From Candidatus Poribacteria bacterium (lineage in GTDB: Bacteria > Abyssobacteria > SURF-5): a DNA stretch of 16,105 nucleotides. Shown here piece by piece: positions 979 to 13,865 of the stretch. A program made the translations under genes and the position numbers. How positions within the stretch are numbered: position 1 is the first letter of the stretch; each line of letters opens with the position of its first letter. The notes under the pieces are model-generated. The model did not search any database. It was given only the letters and a program-made list of their open reading frames with translations, and was not told the DNA's origin. The stretch spans positions 1 through 16,105 of the forward strand of contig JACRIR010000006.1 of assembly GCA_016215705.1 (NCBI GenBank), given 5' to 3'.

Positions 979-1908
979 ATGGCGAGACTTGATGATTTCA
1001 AAGGGTCGGACAAATACATAGTCGATGAGGATCTCGCAAAGGCGTTTCTAATAGCGAGAATACTTGGGAAACCACTACTGCTCGAGGGTGAGCCCGGTAC
1101 GGGCAAGACAAAACTCGCGCAAGAGTATGCGCGGCACGCCGGTTTGCAGATATTCGAGTTTCCTGTCACGTCCGAAAGCAAAGTGTCACATCTCGTTTCG
1201 AGCTTTGACGACGTGCTGAGGCTAATGGACTCGCAGGCAATAATCGCGAACGCTCAGATGGAACGCGCGGGCCTGAAGACGCGGCTCGACCTCAAAGGCA
1301 GACACATAGACAACCTTCACAATTATGTGAGACTCGGGCCACTGGCTCAGGCCTATAAGGCGCCCAATTCGGTTCTCTTGATTGACGAGATCGACAAAGC
1401 TCCGCGAGAGTTTCCGAACAATCTCCTTTATGTCATCAATGACAGAAAAGTGGTTATTCCGGAAACGGGCGAAGTTATCGAGACGACGCTGGCAACCATG
1501 CCGACAATTGTAATTACCAGCAACCATGAACAAGACCTTCCCGCTCCTTTCATCAGAAGATGTGTTTACCACTACATTGAATTCCCGAACCAGAAACGGA
1601 TGCGTGAAATAGTCCGGCTGCATCATCCGGATGCAAACGACACGCTGGTCGAATCGGCCATTACTATTTTCTATCAATTGAGAGACCTCGGGCTTCAAAG
1701 AAAGCCGTCCACAAGTGAGATCATCGATTGGCTGACCTATCTGAAGAGAGACGGCGACATATCCGCCGAGAAACTGGGTCATCTGGAAGGCTATCAAACG
1801 CTGGTCAAGCATAAGGATGACTTGCCCGTGCTCGAGGCAATCAAGAAGAACGGCATGGACTACGTTCGAGCGCCGCGAAGCGTCAAGTCTCCGTATTTGA
1901 ATCGTTGA
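979..1908 (+). CDS. MoxR-family AAA+ ATPase
   Basis: This 309-residue cytoplasmic ATPase is of the MoxR class, chaperone-like AAA+ proteins that act with VWA-domain partners to activate or assemble protein or metalloenzyme targets. Walker A is GEPGTGKT (residues 37-44), Walker B is LLIDEID (about 133-139), and sensor 1 falls in 'TIVITSNHEQDLP' near residue 180. It is followed by 'FIRRC', the usual arginine-finger region. Length and motif order fit the family. The ATG has a strong AGAGAGG ribosome binding site. The VWA gene starts 7 bases after the stop, a typical MoxR-VWA pairing that implies co-expression and physical partnership. The substrate is unknown. No hydrogenase, CO dehydrogenase or methanol dehydrogenase genes are visible nearby, so classic CoxD/MoxR roles are not supported here. 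Confidence 0.93.
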   Translation: MARLDDFKGSDKYIVDEDLAKAFLIARILGKPLLLEGEPGTGKTKLAQEYARHAGLQIFEFPVTSESKVSHLVSSFDDVLRLMDSQAIIANAQMERAGLKTRLDLKGRHIDNLHNYVRLGPLAQAYKAPNSVLLIDEIDKAPREFPNNLLYVINDRKVVIPETGEVIETTLATMPTIVITSNHEQDLPAPFIRRCVYHYIEFPNQKRMREIVRLHHPDANDTLVESAITIFYQLRDLGLQRKPSTSEIIDWLTYLKRDGDISAEKLGHLEGYQTLVKHKDDLPVLEAIKKNGMDYVRAPRSVKSPYLNR

Positions 1909-1915
1909 TGAAGAA

Positions 1916-3301
1916 ATGTTTACCAGTTTCCCTGAAACTTTGAGAGCTTTTGGCCTGCAGTCCGACGTGCGCACGCTCGGCGAATTGTACCACTGCATGT
2001 CACAGGGTTTAGCTGCCAGCCTCGGCGATCTCTTCGACATCGGCAAGATACTCATCGTTAAGCGCAAGCGAGAGGTCGCGCCTTACACGCTCGCCTTTTT
2101 CAATTATTTCCTCGGCGTCGAAACCAAGAACGCGAAGACTCTAGACGAGGCCGTCTTGAGTTCTGTCTCCTTCAATACCTGGCTAAACACTTTTCTCGAG
2201 CAGACCGGCAAATCAAAATGGGATTTCAATGAATCAGAGTTGGTCGACAAGTTTCTCGACGACGTTTTGAGGAGCAGTTCCGCCGAGGAAATCGCCCGAA
2301 AATTTTCCGGCAAGGATATACTGGGGAACGACGACCCGAACCGGGCGGATGATGGCGGAGGGGCGGGCGGGGGAAGGTCTCCGTTCGCAGATGCTTTTGC
2401 GGATTACCGGGACATCGATATCGAGGAAATACTCCGGAGAATGGAACAGGTTGCTCGCCAGCAGAAAGGGCCACACAGCGGCGGCAGTCACTGGATCGGA
2501 ACAGACGGCATATCGCCCTATGGCCACGGGGGCAGGGCTGCAGGCGGTATCAGGATTGGCGGGCAAGGGAGAGGCAAGGGCGCGAGAAAGGTTCTGGGAG
2601 ATCCGGAATACTATCCCGTCATGATCGATAAGGTTCTCACCGACGACATGATCGACGTCACTCTTGCATCGCTCAAGAACATCGCCGACTCGACAATAGA
2701 TTTCAAACTGGACATTGAGAAGACAATCGAAGAGGGTGTCAAGAAGGCAGGGATATTCATTCCATACCTACGCCCGATAACGGACGACAGGATACAGGTC
2801 ATCCTTCTGATTGACAATGGCGGCTTCTCCATGCGGCCGCATTCAAAGACCGTATCAGCGCTGTTTTTGAAGATGAAGAGAAGATTCACCCACGACTTGA
2901 AAATCTATTTCTTTCATAACTCGATCTATCATCGCGTTTACTCCGATGAGGCCAGACGCGATCCAGTTCCGATTGAGAAAATCCTGGATATGAACTCCGA
3001 CCATCGGGTGTTCATCGTGGGTGACGCCGACATGGCGCCTCATGAATTGATGGCGAGGTACGGCTCGATCGAGCCGAGAGAAGAGACCGAGATTCCGAGC
3101 ATAGAATATCTGCAGAGGATTGCGGCGAGATTCCGGAGAACCGTCTGGTTGAACCCGATACCCCAGAAATCGTGGCTGATCACAACAGCCGAGTACATAA
3201 TCCGTGTCATGAAAATGTTCCCGCTTACACCCCACGGCATTGCGGATTCGGTTGACTACATGAACCACAAACTTCCGTCTCTCACACACCACATTGAATA
3301 A
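1916..3301 (+). CDS. VWA (CoxE-like) domain protein, partner of the MoxR ATPase
   Basis: The protein has 461 residues. The N-terminal part (about 1-145) is helical and charged. A glycine-rich stretch (about 145-225) acts as a likely flexible linker. The C-terminal half is a von Willebrand A-like domain beginning at '[12 protein letters not shown]', with D300 as the presumed MIDAS aspartate. It continues through '[15 protein letters not shown]' and '[11 protein letters not shown]', as in CoxE-like VWA proteins. The canonical MIDAS DxSxS is replaced by D-N-G-G-F, with serine at 305, so metal-dependent binding may be altered. There is no signal peptide, so it is presumably cytoplasmic. The ATG at 1916 follows the ATPase stop by 7 bases with a weak GAAGAA-type ribosome binding site. 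The 3' end overlaps the convergent DAHP synthase gene by 20 bases. Operon partnership with the ATPase is the best functional clue, and the target is unknown. Confidence 0.85.
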
Positions 3302-4244
3302 GGCGAGCGGGTGTCAGTCCTCTGCCCATCGCCTCGACAATCGGAGTTATTTCTTCCATCAACTTTCTGAACATTTCAAAGGTAAGGCTTTGAGCTCCGT
3401 CGCTCAGAGCTCTGTCGGGATCGGGATGCACCTCGATGAGCAGGCCGTCCGCCCCGGCCGCTACCGCCGCGCGCGCCATGGGGATGACCAGGTTGCGTTT
3501 GCCCGTCCCGTGACTTGGGTCCACAACCACCGGCAGATGTGTTTCCTGTTTAGCGACGGCGACTGCGCTCAGGTCGAGCGTATTGCGGGTCATTGTTTCG
3601 AACGAGCGGATTCCTCGCTCGCAGAGTATCACATTCGGGTTGCCGTGCGACAGTAGATACTCGGCGGACATCAGCCATTCCTCGATTGTGCAGGACATGC
3701 CCCGCTTCAAGAGAACCGGTTTTCCGCTTCGGGCGACCTCACACAAAAGAGGAGTGTTCTGCGCGTTGCGCGCGCCTATCTGGATGAGGTCGGCGCAGGA
3801 TGCGACCGACTCGACATCGCCAACCGACAGGAGCTCCGTCACGACCGGCAGGCCAGTTGACTCTCTCGCGCGGGCCAAGCGTCGAAGTCCTTCATTGCCC
3901 CATCCCTGAAAGCTGTAGGGGGAAGTGCGCGGTTTGAATGCGCCGCCGCGAAGCATGTGCGCGCCTGATTGTTTCACGCTTCGCGCCGTCTCAACGATTT
4001 CCTCCTCGCCCTCGACACAGCAAGGGCCTGCTATCACGGTGAACAATGCGCTTCCGACGGGTATTCCCGCAACGTTCACCACCGTCGATCGGGGATGCCC
4101 TTCGCGGCTCGCGAGTCTGTAAGGTTTCGAGACCGCCGCGCCGCGCGGAACTTCTTCGAGTACGGCAAGGACTTCGGCGTCCTCCCCGGACAGACTTGGG
4201 TTGCCGGCGCTTCCTGTGGCTTGCTTCTTGAGCGTAATCGTCAT
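3282..4244 (-). CDS. aroF: 3-deoxy-7-phosphoheptulonate (DAHP) synthase, type I-beta
   Basis: This enzyme condenses phosphoenolpyruvate and erythrose 4-phosphate into DAHP, the first shikimate-pathway step, in the cytoplasm. It has 320 residues. Diagnostic motifs are 'IAGPC' with the metal-ligand Cys75, '[11 protein letters not shown]' (104-114), '[10 protein letters not shown]', 'LLKRGM', 'ILCERGIR', '[11 protein letters not shown]' (metal His), and '[17 protein letters not shown]' (metal Glu and Asp). The order and wording match the Thermotoga/Bacillus I-beta class. The start at 4244 is fixed by GGAG and GAGAGG ribosome binding elements just upstream. Only about 40 residues precede 'PYRLASRE', against roughly 85-90 in Thermotoga maritima, so the ferredoxin-like regulatory domain is shortened or absent. 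A leader-peptide attenuator lies upstream. The stop overlaps the convergent VWA gene. The symbol aroF is used in the general I-beta sense. Confidence 0.96.
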
Positions 4245-4356: not shown

Positions 4357-4396
4357 GAAAACAAAAAGGCCACGGACTCTTCTGAGCCCGTGGCCT
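4357..4396 (-). terminator. Intrinsic terminator (attenuator) in the DAHP synthase leader
   Basis: Read on the minus strand, AGGCCACGG (4396-4388) pairs perfectly with CCGTGGCCT (4375-4367) around a 12-base loop. The run TTTTTGTTTT follows at once. This 9-pair GC-rich stem with a U-tract is a textbook intrinsic terminator. It sits upstream of the coding region, 28 bases after the stop codon of an aromatic-rich leader ORF, so it acts as an attenuator. On the plus strand no T-run follows the stem. Confidence 0.88.
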
Positions 4397-4434
4397 CTGT
4401 TACTCTTTGCTCTCTAGAGGAAACTAACCAAGGC
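4393..4434 (-). promoter_or_regulatory. Candidate antiterminator segment overlapping the leader stop codon
   Basis: On the minus strand three 4-base blocks, GCCT (4434-4431), GTTA (4428-4425, overlapping the TAG) and CTCT (4419-4416), can pair in order with AGGC (4396-4393), TAAC (4402-4399) and AGAG (4406-4403). The last-formed block takes the first four bases of the terminator arm, so the two folds exclude each other. A ribosome stalled on the Trp codons would leave the segment free. A ribosome at the stop codon would cover it. The pairings are visible, but their use in vivo is inferred. Confidence 0.5.
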
Positions 4435-4495
4435 GAGCGGGCACAGAATACCACCAGCTAAAGTAAAATCGAAAATACTTTCTCGCCGATGACAT
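4424..4495 (-). CDS. Aromatic-rich leader peptide of the DAHP synthase attenuator
   Basis: This 23-codon ORF runs from the ATG at 4495-4493 to the TAG at 4426-4424. Residues 7-16 read YFRFYFSWWY, and 8 of 23 residues are Phe, Tyr or Trp, with tandem Trp at 14-15. A GAGG ribosome binding site lies 11 bases upstream (4510-4507) and a near-consensus promoter precedes it. An intrinsic terminator follows within 30 bases. This matches leader peptides of amino-acid operons such as trp and pheA, where stalling at scarce charged tRNAs prevents termination. The gene controlled, DAHP synthase, supplies all three aromatic amino acids, which fits a leader reading all three codon types. The peptide is probably not functional as a protein. 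Confidence 0.85.
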   Translation of the reverse strand: MSSARKYFRFYFSWWYSVPARLG

Positions 4496-4543
4496 TCTGT
4501 CGCTAACCTCGGTTTGTCCTCTGTGCGTCAAGTTATTGCAATC

Positions 4544-4571
4544 ATTATACCACCATTTCCCGGAATGTCAA
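4544..4571 (-). promoter_or_regulatory. Sigma70 promoter of the leader peptide-DAHP synthase unit
   Basis: On the minus strand a perfect TTGACA (4571-4566), a 16-base spacer and a perfect TATAAT (4549-4544) preceded by TG (extended -10) form an essentially consensus promoter. Transcription should begin near 4537, about 42 bases before the leader ATG. Such a strong promoter suits control by attenuation further downstream. It is divergent from the promoter at 4611-4638. Confidence 0.85.
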
Positions 4572-4610: not shown

Positions 4611-4638
4611 TTGACTTCTTCCATGAAGTTGATATAAT
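4611..4638 (+). promoter_or_regulatory. Extended -10 promoter driving a leaderless transcript of the SGNH gene
   Basis: TTGACT (4611-4616), a 16-base spacer and TATAAT (4633-4638) with TG at 4630-4631 form a near-consensus promoter. Only six bases separate the -10 from the ATG at 4645, so the expected start point falls at or next to the A of the start codon. There is no room for a ribosome binding site. Confidence 0.75.
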
Positions 4639-4644
4639 CGAATT

Positions 4645-5544
4645 ATGAGGAAACTCACACAAGTCGCCTCGTGGTACACTGTTTTCCTTTTGACTGCCGG
4701 CTTCTATGTCTCAGTTAATTCTCCTGATGTGTGGGTGAGAAGACACCTGCCTTCCGACTGTTGGGAAACATTCTTGACGGATTTTGACGACCGACTGCAG
4801 ATTTACAATTGCCTGCGTCGGTACGGCCCACGGACGGTGATTGTTGGGCCTTCGTACGCCTGGCAGCTTGGCAGTTTTTCCGGCATATACAATCTGAGCA
4901 TACTTGGCGCTAATCCGGCCGAAACGGCCAATGTGCTCCGGTACTGTCGCCAGGAGGACACTGTTTTATATATTTTTACGCTTAGAGAGGTGGCGCTCTT
5001 CAAAAGAGAGGCGAAATATTCAAGCTCTTGCGCCCTTACGAGACGCGCCGCTATCATGCGAAAGTCCATACGCTGCATGGTATTCGGCACGGACAACGCG
5101 CCATACAATCCGATACCGGAGGCGGACACGTCCGTATCGGAGGTGGAAATAGAGACATTTGCGAAAGCAATAGACTTGAGTAAAGTGAACGTCGTGCCCA
5201 AGAGGGCGATTTTCCGACTTAGAATATGCAGTGTGCCTCCGGAAGATATCACATTGCGTCCATTCCTTGAGCTTGCAGAACAACATCCCGGAATCGTTTT
5301 TGTCTTTCACCCGATGCTACCCCTAAATCGCGTCGCGGACGACACTTCGCTGGCGCATTCCATCAGCCGATGCCTTGAGTCGCAAGAAAGAATCAGGGAG
5401 CTTTTCTCTCAAAGCGACCTAAGGTTTGTTGACTTCTCTGATAGTGTTCCGGCCTCGATGTTCGGTGATTTCTATCACCTGCGTGACGATGGCAAGGAGC
5501 TGCTTCGTCAAGAGATATCCGCGTATTTATCCCACTTGTCTTGA
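4645..5544 (+). CDS. SGNH-hydrolase-like protein with N-terminal signal anchor, glycan cluster
   Basis: This 299-residue protein begins with a hydrophobic segment (about 8-25, 'WYTVFLLTAGFYVSV'), which suggests export or membrane anchoring toward the periplasm. Residues 64-77 'TVIVGPSYAWQL' resemble SGNH block I, with Ser70 as candidate nucleophile. 'YNLSILGANPAET' (82-93) resembles block II. 'DFYHLRDDGKELL' near the C-terminus supplies the Asp275-x-x-His278 pair of block V. This layout recalls SGNH esterase/acyltransferase-type proteins of alginate, DltD-like and exopolysaccharide clusters, which add or remove acyl groups on glycans. Block III Asn is not obvious. It is the first gene of a long same-strand run of glycan genes, and its ATG lies 6 bases after a TATAAT box. 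Substrate and direction of reaction are unknown; overall similarity to a named family is low by eye. Confidence 0.65.
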   Translation: MRKLTQVASWYTVFLLTAGFYVSVNSPDVWVRRHLPSDCWETFLTDFDDRLQIYNCLRRYGPRTVIVGPSYAWQLGSFSGIYNLSILGANPAETANVLRYCRQEDTVLYIFTLREVALFKREAKYSSSCALTRRAAIMRKSIRCMVFGTDNAPYNPIPEADTSVSEVEIETFAKAIDLSKVNVVPKRAIFRLRICSVPPEDITLRPFLELAEQHPGIVFVFHPMLPLNRVADDTSLAHSISRCLESQERIRELFSQSDLRFVDFSDSVPASMFGDFYHLRDDGKELLRQEISAYLSHLS

Positions 5545-11833: not shown

Positions 11834-12657
11834 TACCGGCCAGGTGGCGACACATGATGCTCATAAGAGTACTCCGGCGCGCTGCGGCCAGTGCGCTCGA
11901 CAACAACAAAGCGTCCGGCGACGGAGAGGACAGTATACGTTCGGTTGTTGAACTAGTGGATGAGCTTCGAACGATCGTAGCGAGAGTTGAAAGTACTGTT
12001 TCAGGGAAGGAAGGTCGTTCCGCCGTCATCCCCATCATGAAGTCATTGCTGAGTCTGGACAATGAGCTCTACAAGGCCATTTCCGTCGGTGCGTGCAAAT
12101 ATGACAACGGGATACATCCCAAGCACCGCCTAATGAAGTACCACGAATTCTTTTGCAAGAATGTAGGCACTGAAGATACTGTCCTCGACATAGGCTGCGG
12201 CAACGGGTTCCTGACGAGTGATGTTGCCAAATGCACCAGTGGGCGGGTTGTCGGCATTGACATGAACCGGGGAAACATCGACTTCGCCAAGAAGCATTAC
12301 CATGCAGACAACATAGAATATATATACGGCGACGTGAATACCGACATCAAGCCCGGCCATTTCGACATAGTCATTCTTTCAAACGTGCTTGAACATCTGT
12401 CCAATCGCGTCGGGTTTCTGAGGCAGGTTCGAGAAAAGGTTTCCCCTTCAGAATTCCTGCTTCGTGTGCCCATGTATGAACGCGAATGGATGGTTCCCCT
12501 GAAGCAGGAATTGGGGATAGACTACCTGCTTGATGCAACGCATGAAATCGAGTACACGCAGGAACAGTTTTTCGAGGAGCTTAAGGCAGCCGGACTCGTT
12601 CCCGAGGCATGGGAAATCCGGTGGGGGGAGATTTGGTGTTGCGCGACGCCAGAGTAA
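11830..12657 (+). CDS. Class I SAM-dependent methyltransferase (second)
   Basis: The protein has 275 residues. A helical N-terminal region (about 10-95) precedes the SAM domain. 'GIHPKHRLMKYHEFF' leads into motif I 'VLDIGCGNGF' (118-127), then 'VVGIDMN', 'YGDVN' and 'FDIVILSNVLEHL'. This form is frequent in O-antigen and exopolysaccharide loci. The start ATG overlaps the preceding stop (ATGA), indicating coupled translation with the second GT4. Sequence is clearly different from the first methyltransferase, so two separate methylation steps are likely. The acceptor is unknown. It is the last gene before a 230-base repeat-bearing gap. Confidence 0.9.
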   Translation: MIPARWRHMMLIRVLRRAAASALDNNKASGDGEDSIRSVVELVDELRTIVARVESTVSGKEGRSAVIPIMKSLLSLDNELYKAISVGACKYDNGIHPKHRLMKYHEFFCKNVGTEDTVLDIGCGNGFLTSDVAKCTSGRVVGIDMNRGNIDFAKKHYHADNIEYIYGDVNTDIKPGHFDIVILSNVLEHLSNRVGFLRQVREKVSPSEFLLRVPMYEREWMVPLKQELGIDYLLDATHEIEYTQEQFFEELKAAGLVPEAWEIRWGEIWCCATPE

Positions 12658-12794
12658 GGCGAAAGGCGATAAAAGGCTTGGGGAAAAAGGTGAAACGGGG
12701 AAAAGGTAAAGAAGGAACGCGAGAGTCGTGGGTCACGAGTTTCGGGCCTCGGGTCAACATAAGCGAATGAAGATACGAATCTATGAAATGGAAC
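12658..12794. other. Non-coding purine-rich spacer
   Basis: This first part of the 230-base gap between the second methyltransferase and the GT2 gene is G/A-rich on the plus strand. It contains several related 'TCGGGTC/TCGTGGGTC' pieces around 12725-12755, including the small hairpin TCGTG-GGT-CACGA. Minus-strand reading frames here look like low-complexity shadows. I see no convincing gene, terminator with U-tract or promoter. Confidence 0.5.
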
Positions 12795-12822
12795 GTCATT
12801 CTGAGCGAAGCGAAGAATCTCA
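12795..12822. repeat. Interspersed palindromic repeat, GTCATTCTGAGCGAAG type
   Basis: The stretch from GTCATTCTGAGCGAAGC to AAGAATCTC is a familiar element in intergenic regions of many environmental and metagenomic genomes. When translated, such elements give the spurious peptide 'ILRFAQND'. The ATTCT and AGAAT ends can pair. No transposase is linked. It lies 19 bases from a second palindromic element. Confidence 0.7.
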
Positions 12823-12840
12823 ATCCAAAATCCAAAAACA

Positions 12841-12867
12841 TGGATTCCCGCTTTCGCGGGAATGACA
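12841..12867. repeat. Interspersed palindromic repeat, ATTCCCGC hairpin type
   Basis: ATTCCCGC (12844-12851) and GCGGGAAT (12856-12863) form a perfect 8-pair hairpin with loop TTTC, flanked by TGG and GACA. This is the widespread element whose minus-strand reading gives the spurious peptide 'VIPAKAGI'. It ends 20 bases before the GT2 start codon, so it probably contributes to the mRNA leader of that gene. Confidence 0.75.
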
Positions 12868-12887
12868 AGAACAGCTTGATCTAAAGC

Positions 12888-13865
12888 ATGTCGCAACCTA
12901 AAGTCAGCGTTGTCATGGGCGTATATAATGGAGCGAGATTCCTGCGCGAAGCGGTGCAGAGCATTCTCGACCAGACGTTCAAAGACTTTGAGTTTTTGAT
13001 CGTAAATGATGGCTCGACCGACGTGACTGCGCGAATACTGAAGGAATTTTGCGACCCGCGCATCAAGGTCATAGAAAACACACGCAACGAAGGGCTAACG
13101 CGCAGCCTGATCAAAGGCTGCGGCATTGCGCGCGGCGAATATATCGCGCGCATGGACGCCGACGACATCAGCTATCCCATGCGGCTTCAGAAGCAGGTCG
13201 AGTTTCTCGAAGCTAACGCCGATTACTCGGTTGCCGGCACTCAGTTTCACTTTGTCGACAGCTCCGGGAAGCGGCGGCAGACTTCCGGAATGCCGTATCT
13301 GACGGAAGAAATCAGGCAGGTCTTGAGCCGGACGCAGTCGCCAGTCGCTCATGGCTCCGTAATGTTTGTGCGACACCACATTTTGGAATGCGGCGGGTAT
13401 CGCGAAGTTTTCCGGTACGCGCAGGATTACGACCTGTGGCTGCGGGTTATGGAGAAACACAAGATCACCAATCTGAAAGAGGTGCTGTATGGACTTCGGT
13501 TTCACCGCGAATCTACGACCCAACAGAAGTCTTACTATCAACTTTTGTTCGGGGAACTTGCGCGCCGGTTCGCCGAGATGCGGGGGGAAACAGGTTCCGA
13601 CCCGTTGATGCGCGGCGAAGTCGAGCAAGTGCGGCAGGAGATCGAATCCTGGTGGCCCGATGGAATAATTCAGAAGGGCAGGATACGTTCCGACAGCGCC
13701 TTGCGCCTTGCGCACGAATTGGTCCGTTGGGCGAAACTCTCCGACGTACTCTTGCTGTGGCTGAAATCGGTGGGGAATAGCCCGCTAAACAAGGAGGCAT
13801 GGCGATTCCTCGTATCGAAAGAGTTGCGCCAGCGCTTGAGCGACACGATCAAGAGGAGATTGTGA
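12888..13865 (+). CDS. Glycosyltransferase family 2 (GT-A fold)
   Basis: The protein has 325 residues. N-terminal 'KVSVVMGVYNGARFLREAVQSILDQTF' is the classic GT2 opening. 'IVNDGSTD' (39-45) and 'ARMDADD' (88-93, DxD-type metal and nucleotide-sugar binding) follow, then 'PVAHGSVMFVRHHI..CGGYRE' and 'AQDYDLWLR', the usual acceptor/catalytic-base region with the ED-like 'QDYD'. The C-terminal ~90 residues are variable. It likely acts in the cytoplasm, adding one sugar from a nucleotide-sugar donor. No clear ribosome binding site precedes ATG 12888, and the leader consists of interspersed repeats. The next gene begins directly after its stop, with AGGAG inside this gene's last codons. Specificity is unknown. 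Confidence 0.92.
   Translation: MSQPKVSVVMGVYNGARFLREAVQSILDQTFKDFEFLIVNDGSTDVTARILKEFCDPRIKVIENTRNEGLTRSLIKGCGIARGEYIARMDADDISYPMRLQKQVEFLEANADYSVAGTQFHFVDSSGKRRQTSGMPYLTEEIRQVLSRTQSPVAHGSVMFVRHHILECGGYREVFRYAQDYDLWLRVMEKHKITNLKEVLYGLRFHRESTTQQKSYYQLLFGELARRFAEMRGETGSDPLMRGEVEQVRQEIESWWPDGIIQKGRIRSDSALRLAHELVRWAKLSDVLLLWLKSVGNSPLNKEAWRFLVSKELRQRLSDTIKRRL

Follow-up and report, generated by a model that had tools for sequence, protein, structure and literature searches.

The window analysed here is a stretch of 16,105 nucleotides from Candidatus Poribacteria bacterium, placed by GTDB in the Abyssobacteria (SURF-5). Its minus strand carries a gene for a type I-beta DAHP synthase. The encoded protein scores 400 bits against TIGR01361 (cut-off 268 bits) and 452 bits against NF006421 (cut-off 335 bits), and its closest named relative is the enzyme of Candidatus Abyssobacteria SURF_17, with 79% identity. 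Upstream of this gene, and in this order on the minus strand, lie a promoter, a GAGG motif, a 23-codon open reading frame (ORF), and a terminator. The features of the leader are as follows.

4571-4544 (-): promoter of the sigma-70 type, TTGACA-16-TATAAT, matching the consensus at 12/12 positions
4485..4522 (-): segment 1, the 5' arm of a protector/pause hairpin found by folding; it spans the ribosome-binding site and start codon of the leader
4507..4510 (-): GAGG, a short and likely ribosome-binding site for the leader peptide, 11 nt 5' of the ATG and within the 5' arm of the protector hairpin
4424..4495 (-): leader peptide ORF of 23 codons, MSSARKYFRFYFSWWYSVPARLG and a stop codon, kept in G002/SURF_17 and G001
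4451..4477 (-): regulatory codons 7-15 (Tyr Phe Arg Phe Tyr Phe Ser Trp Trp), from a scan of ribosome positions
4416..4459 (-): segment 2, found by folding; this 3' arm of the protector hairpin extends from codon 13 to a point 8 nt beyond the leader stop
4430..4442 (-): 5' arm of the antiterminator, GCCCG-CUC-GCCUU, at ORF nucleotides 54-66 (codons 18-22); same helix in 3/3 genomes
4386..4397 (-): 3' arm of the antiterminator, which is also the 5' arm of the terminator, GAGGC-CA-CGGGC; same helix in 3/3 genomes
4358..4398 (-): intrinsic terminator with a 15-pair stem (9 GC), a 4-nt loop, and a TTTTTGTTTT tail
3282..4244 (-): the regulated gene, an aroF-like type I-beta DAHP synthase (TIGR01361 and NF006421)

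The original prediction had named the near-consensus promoter, the GAGG site (4510-4507), and the 23-codon ORF (4495-4424(-)) with YFRFYFSWWY at residues 7-16, and each of them is present. Eight of the ten residues in this motif are Phe, Tyr, or Trp. Two anatomical details needed correction. The terminator had been given 9 pairs, and its stem has 15 (4398-4365). The pairing segment had been placed across the leader stop codon, about 16 bases after the second Trp codon; the best-supported arm consists of codons 18-22, begins 8 nt past that codon, and ends just upstream of the stop. Segment 1 covers ORF nucleotides of about -27 to +11 in the folding and is located wholly upstream of the aromatic codons.

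Chance does not account for these features, and the leader ORF, promoter, and terminator are confirmed as genuine. Among 20,000 dinucleotide-shuffled versions of the leader, none has an ORF in which 8 of 10 residues are aromatic, and a single one reaches 7. Among the 345 small ORFs of the window, the second-best density is 5 in 10 residues. Compared with shuffled sequences, the leader folds with a z of -8.8 in the window and of -7.7 and -6.7 in two relatives. In a scan of the window and 11 related loci with Rfam covariance models at the gathering score, no leader family (Trp_leader, Phe_leader, or others) and no T-box is found.

Conservation of the leader in Abyssobacteria

Three Abyssobacteria genomes of one family can be compared: the window's own, G001, and G002/SURF_17. 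As anticipated for homologous leaders, both relatives keep the ORF with its two Trp codons, the promoter, and the terminator. The promoter reads TTGACT-16-TATAAT at the equivalent position in both, and the terminator aligns in all three genomes. The leader peptides are MSSARKYFRFYFSWWYSVPARLG in the window, MPSARRYYGFFYFSWWRSVPARLR in G002, and MTPAVRNFWFYYFSWWRPVPVRLE in G001, and their lengths differ in frame only. They share an FSWW core, with tandem Trp codons that are invariant in 3/3, and a C-terminal VP[AV]RL. Their aromatic content is constant (3 Phe, 2-3 Tyr, and 2-3 Trp), while the positions of Phe and Tyr swap. A second copy of TTTAGCTGGTGG, on contig 66 of G001, lies outside any aromatic ORF according to the scan and was rejected.

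The long hairpin formed by segments 1 and 2 (the 1:2 hairpin) is kept in 3/3 genomes despite a diverged 5' arm, through two-sided and one-sided changes. The covariation expected by the original prediction is thus seen in part. RNAalifold on the three leaders counts 3 two-sided pairs and gives a covariation term of +2.1, which is slightly unfavourable and comes from an imperfect 5' alignment. With three sequences, the apparent covariation is supportive, not conclusive.

The gene upstream of the leader is not the same in all of these genomes. In the window it is divergent (4645-5544 +), whereas in G001 a co-directional gene ends just before the promoter. Since the two upstream genes are unlike, the leader travels with the DAHP synthase. 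Each of the three genomes also has a paralogous second DAHP synthase, and no aromatic leader is found before it. Likewise, no convincing leader of this kind precedes the two chorismate-binding (trpE/pabB-type) genes or pheA in the three genomes.

The divergent gene of the window has a promoter-like sequence of its own in the region 4611-4645(+). This sequence, TTGACT-16-TATAAT, leaves only about 6 nt to the ATG at 4645, which suggests that the gene is leaderless or that its start is misplaced.

The enzymes themselves differ at the N-terminus. Against the T. maritima enzyme, the alignment of the window's DAHP synthase begins only at residue 32 (chain residue 59), and that of G001 at residue 1. 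Most of the N-terminal ferredoxin-like regulatory domain is thus lacking in the window (4131-4244(-)) and in SURF_17, whereas G001 has it at full length. Feedback control may therefore have been lost in two of the three Abyssobacteria species, in which case attenuation would be the remaining brake.

Competing structures and the proposed switch

When the three leaders are folded independently, each forms two blocks, the long hairpin and the terminator. In the long hairpin, the 5' end, the ribosome-binding site, and the start codon of the leader are paired with the region from codon 13 to past the stop. A third structure appears once a ribosome is placed on the leader. In this model the ribosome, whose footprint reaches +16 relative to the P site, moves codon by codon, and the downstream RNA is folded before the 3' arm of the terminator has been made.

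The antiterminator obtained in this way is common to 3/3 genomes, GCCCG-NNC-GCCUY paired with RAGGC-CA-CGGGC, with a duplex energy of -15.3 to -16.9 kcal/mol. It is part of the minimum free energy (MFE) fold in all three for A-site positions from codon 7 to codon 14/15, with fold energies of -16 to -27 kcal/mol, and these drop to -3 to -5 kcal/mol once the ribosome is at the stop codon. Both the competition between antiterminator and terminator/protector hairpin and a pairing segment left free by the stalled ribosome had been predicted, and they are borne out by computation in the three genomes. The tandem Trp codons are the last stall positions that leave the antiterminator arm free. An alternative antiterminator closer to the one originally predicted, in which CCUUGG and UUCCUCU pair with AGAGGCCACGGG and overlap the stop codon, was dropped; the GCCCG/GCCUY register is in the MFE of 3/3.

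Compared with shuffled sequences, the stability of the antiterminator is modest for stalls at Trp and at the last Phe (z of about -2 to -3), and in the relatives it does not exceed the shuffles for stalls at codons 8-10. When the A site holds a Trp codon, 23, 21, and 19 of 1000 shuffles match the antiterminator energy in the three genomes. In the window, z is -1.0 with the A site at Trp15 and -2.3 at Trp14. A mutually exclusive antiterminator is thus found by computation in three genomes, with a weaker signal in the window alone than in the three jointly.

These results point, with a probability of roughly 0.88, to control of the DAHP synthase gene by ribosome-mediated transcription attenuation of the trp/his class. 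The reading is built on the identified parts, on how they are ordered and conserved in the three genomes, and on the structures that compete in the computed folds. An aromatic-rich leader ORF, a terminator before the first gene, and a 1:2 protector/pause hairpin are all present, as expected for a member of this class. Overall the original prediction of an attenuator is supported, and every prediction that it made at the level of sequence gave a positive result.

In the proposed mechanism, RNA polymerase would start at the 4571-4544 promoter and a ribosome would begin the 23-codon leader ORF. As long as charged tRNA-Phe, tRNA-Tyr, and tRNA-Trp are all in good supply, the ribosome should reach the stop codon and cover GCCCGCUCGCCUU. 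The 15-pair terminator would then end transcription about 115 nt before the start codon of the DAHP synthase. If any one of the three is scarce, the ribosome would stall at codons 7-15 and GCCCGCUCGCCUU would stay free. It could then pair with GAGGCCACGGGC, the 5' arm of the terminator, so that no terminator forms and DAHP synthase is made. Without a ribosome, the long 1:2 hairpin would hold GCCCGCUCGCCUU and termination would be the default. Once formed, this hairpin would also hide the ribosome-binding site of the leader, so the first ribosome would probably decide the outcome.

The proposed switch differs from E. coli trp and pheA in one respect. There, the stalled ribosome covers segment 1; in Abyssobacteria, segment 1 lies upstream of the regulatory codons, and the strict E. 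coli trp-type geometry is absent. Segment 1 is left uncovered by a stalled ribosome, and in principle the lower 1:2 stem could re-form around it. The stalled ribosome, or one following it, may hinder this re-pairing. The placement of segment 1 makes the leader less "built like trp"; it does not lower its status as a ribosome-mediated attenuator.

Related attenuators and leaders in other lineages

The mechanism is classical. The E. coli trp and pheA attenuators likewise have a protector hairpin, an antiterminator, a terminator, and regulatory codons just before the edge of the switch, but each reads a single amino acid and controls a branch-specific operon. In E. coli ilvGMEDA, the codons of one leader correspond to several end products made by a shared pathway. 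The Abyssobacteria leader resembles it in this, with Phe, Tyr, and Trp in place of Ile, Val, and Leu. The ilvGMEDA system is listed among attenuators in PMC1183508, which is also a source for details of the trp attenuator.

Two published cases concern DAHP synthase genes. The first is the aroR-aroF attenuator of Corynebacterium glutamicum (Neshat et al. 2014, as summarised in PMC11802643; PMC4046766), in which a leader with aromatic codons precedes the DAHP synthase gene and ribosome stalling raises read-through. The leader is described by its Phe-Tyr-Phe residues, without mention of Trp, and is reported to respond to Phe and not to Tyr (PMC11802643). The second is the uORFC-13-1 motif of Acholeplasma and environmental sequences, found exclusively upstream of aroF, where an upstream ORF with one or more Phe codons and a terminator led to a prediction of attenuation only; Phe is emphasised and Trp unreported (PMC8632094). 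A 2010 survey of premature terminators makes no mention of aroF or aromatic leaders (PMC2965389). No published leader that reads Phe, Tyr, and Trp together was found in the open-access PMC literature, and the version with three amino acids is apparently undescribed.

Similar leaders occur well beyond the Abyssobacteria. The nearest relatives of one query gave 111 DAHP synthase loci, of which 109 were tested after the duplicates L001 and L003 (= L002, L032) had been skipped. A leader was counted if a small ORF with at least 6 aromatic residues in 10 was followed by a terminator. This combination is found in 25/109 upstream regions, compared with 0/1199 control windows taken from flanking sequence in those records; the fraction describes the nearest relatives of one query, with many related Clostridia among the positives, and is not a frequency for bacteria at large. 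The terminator scan accepted short loops and strong U tracts only, and it missed further cases: terminators at L007 and L024 are found by a wider scan, and L038, L041, and L097 show hairpins in their tail sequences.

Leaders with Phe, Tyr, and Trp are found in 3/3 Abyssobacteria, in 19/19 genomes of the order of G097 (L009, L132-L149), and in G033, G032, and a Fusobacteria genome (L109). Examples of the ORFs that, with a terminator, lie upstream of DAHP synthase in the order of G097 are SFTYFFYTYYWFWQRGG, SYWWYYFYSWRE, and FSYSFYAYYFWFYQERST, and these leaders have the same computed switch behaviour. Across a set of 25 leaders with three aromatic amino acids, the antiterminator energy has a mean z of -3.6 against shuffles, with a range of -0.7 to -8.5. 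The leader peptides of these lineages have no recognisable sequence in common. Clostridia have two other types before DAHP synthase, both mainly with Phe and Tyr: one is conserved, reads SYFYFYFN or a variant of it, and is followed by a terminator (L044, L048-L050, L052, L053, L056, L057, L061, L064, L098, L107, L110), and the other has an FSFGFF-like motif (L055, L065, L084, L085). DAHP synthase attenuators would thus be far commoner than the two published cases found.

Which signal the leader reads

The codon content and the geometry of the leader suggest that scarcity of any of Phe, Tyr, or Trp could be sensed, and in the model the geometry fits a general aromatic sensor. We lean, by a modest degree, towards a broader proposal in which a single leader would act as an OR gate for Phe, Tyr, and Trp before the first committed enzyme of the shikimate pathway, with several origins (Abyssobacteria 3/3, a second order 19/19, and three further lineages), and in which attenuation may replace feedback inhibition in Abyssobacteria. 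Such a leader would be a natural three-input sensor for aromatic starvation, and it could show how codon position sets the weight that each of the three amino acids has in one leader. It would also extend classical attenuation to an uncultured candidate lineage.

Alternatively, the attenuator may in effect respond to a single amino acid, which would most likely be Trp; the Phe and Tyr codons would then only slow the ribosome or be tolerated. The tandem Trp codons are invariant and mark the exact edge up to which the antiterminator remains free, and the Phe-Tyr-Phe leader of Corynebacterium is reported to answer to Phe and not to Tyr (PMC11802643). This is nevertheless rather unlikely. Stalls at codons 7-13 leave the antiterminator arm free as well, and the numbers of Phe and Tyr are kept though their positions change. 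Furthermore, other lineages have leaders rich in Phe and Tyr with one Trp or none, and DAHP synthase supplies all three aromatic pathways.

A different kind of signal would be read by an arrest peptide similar to TnaC. Here the nascent peptide itself would sense free Trp or another ligand and stall through its conserved C-terminal VPxRL. The C-terminus is kept in three genomes as such a peptide would require, but the same codons build the antiterminator arm, and their third positions are conserved. The sole variable codon (Ala/Val, GCT/GTC) falls in the internal loop of the antiterminator, where the variable nucleotides of the arm (CUC/UCC) are located. RNA pairing thus explains the conserved VPxRL codons. 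Other lineages show the same layout with unrelated C-termini, and an arrest peptide is very improbable. Intergenic terminators are common, but that this one belongs to an upstream transcription unit, with the aromatic ORF as a chance frame, is scarcely credible given the divergent upstream gene of the window (4645-5544 +), the different one of G001 beside which leader and DAHP synthase stay together, and shuffles that never reach the aromatic density of the leader.

Two other regions of the window may be mentioned beside the ribosome-mediated attenuator. At 979-3301(+), an AAA-type ATPase with a weak match to the MadB family comes first; the next gene, whose product gives a weak SAV_2336-like match, runs into the end of the convergent DAHP synthase gene. 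At 12522-12896(-), a frame reads VIPAKAGIHVFGFWIEILRFAQNDV, which may be a translated dispersed intergenic repeat rather than a gene.
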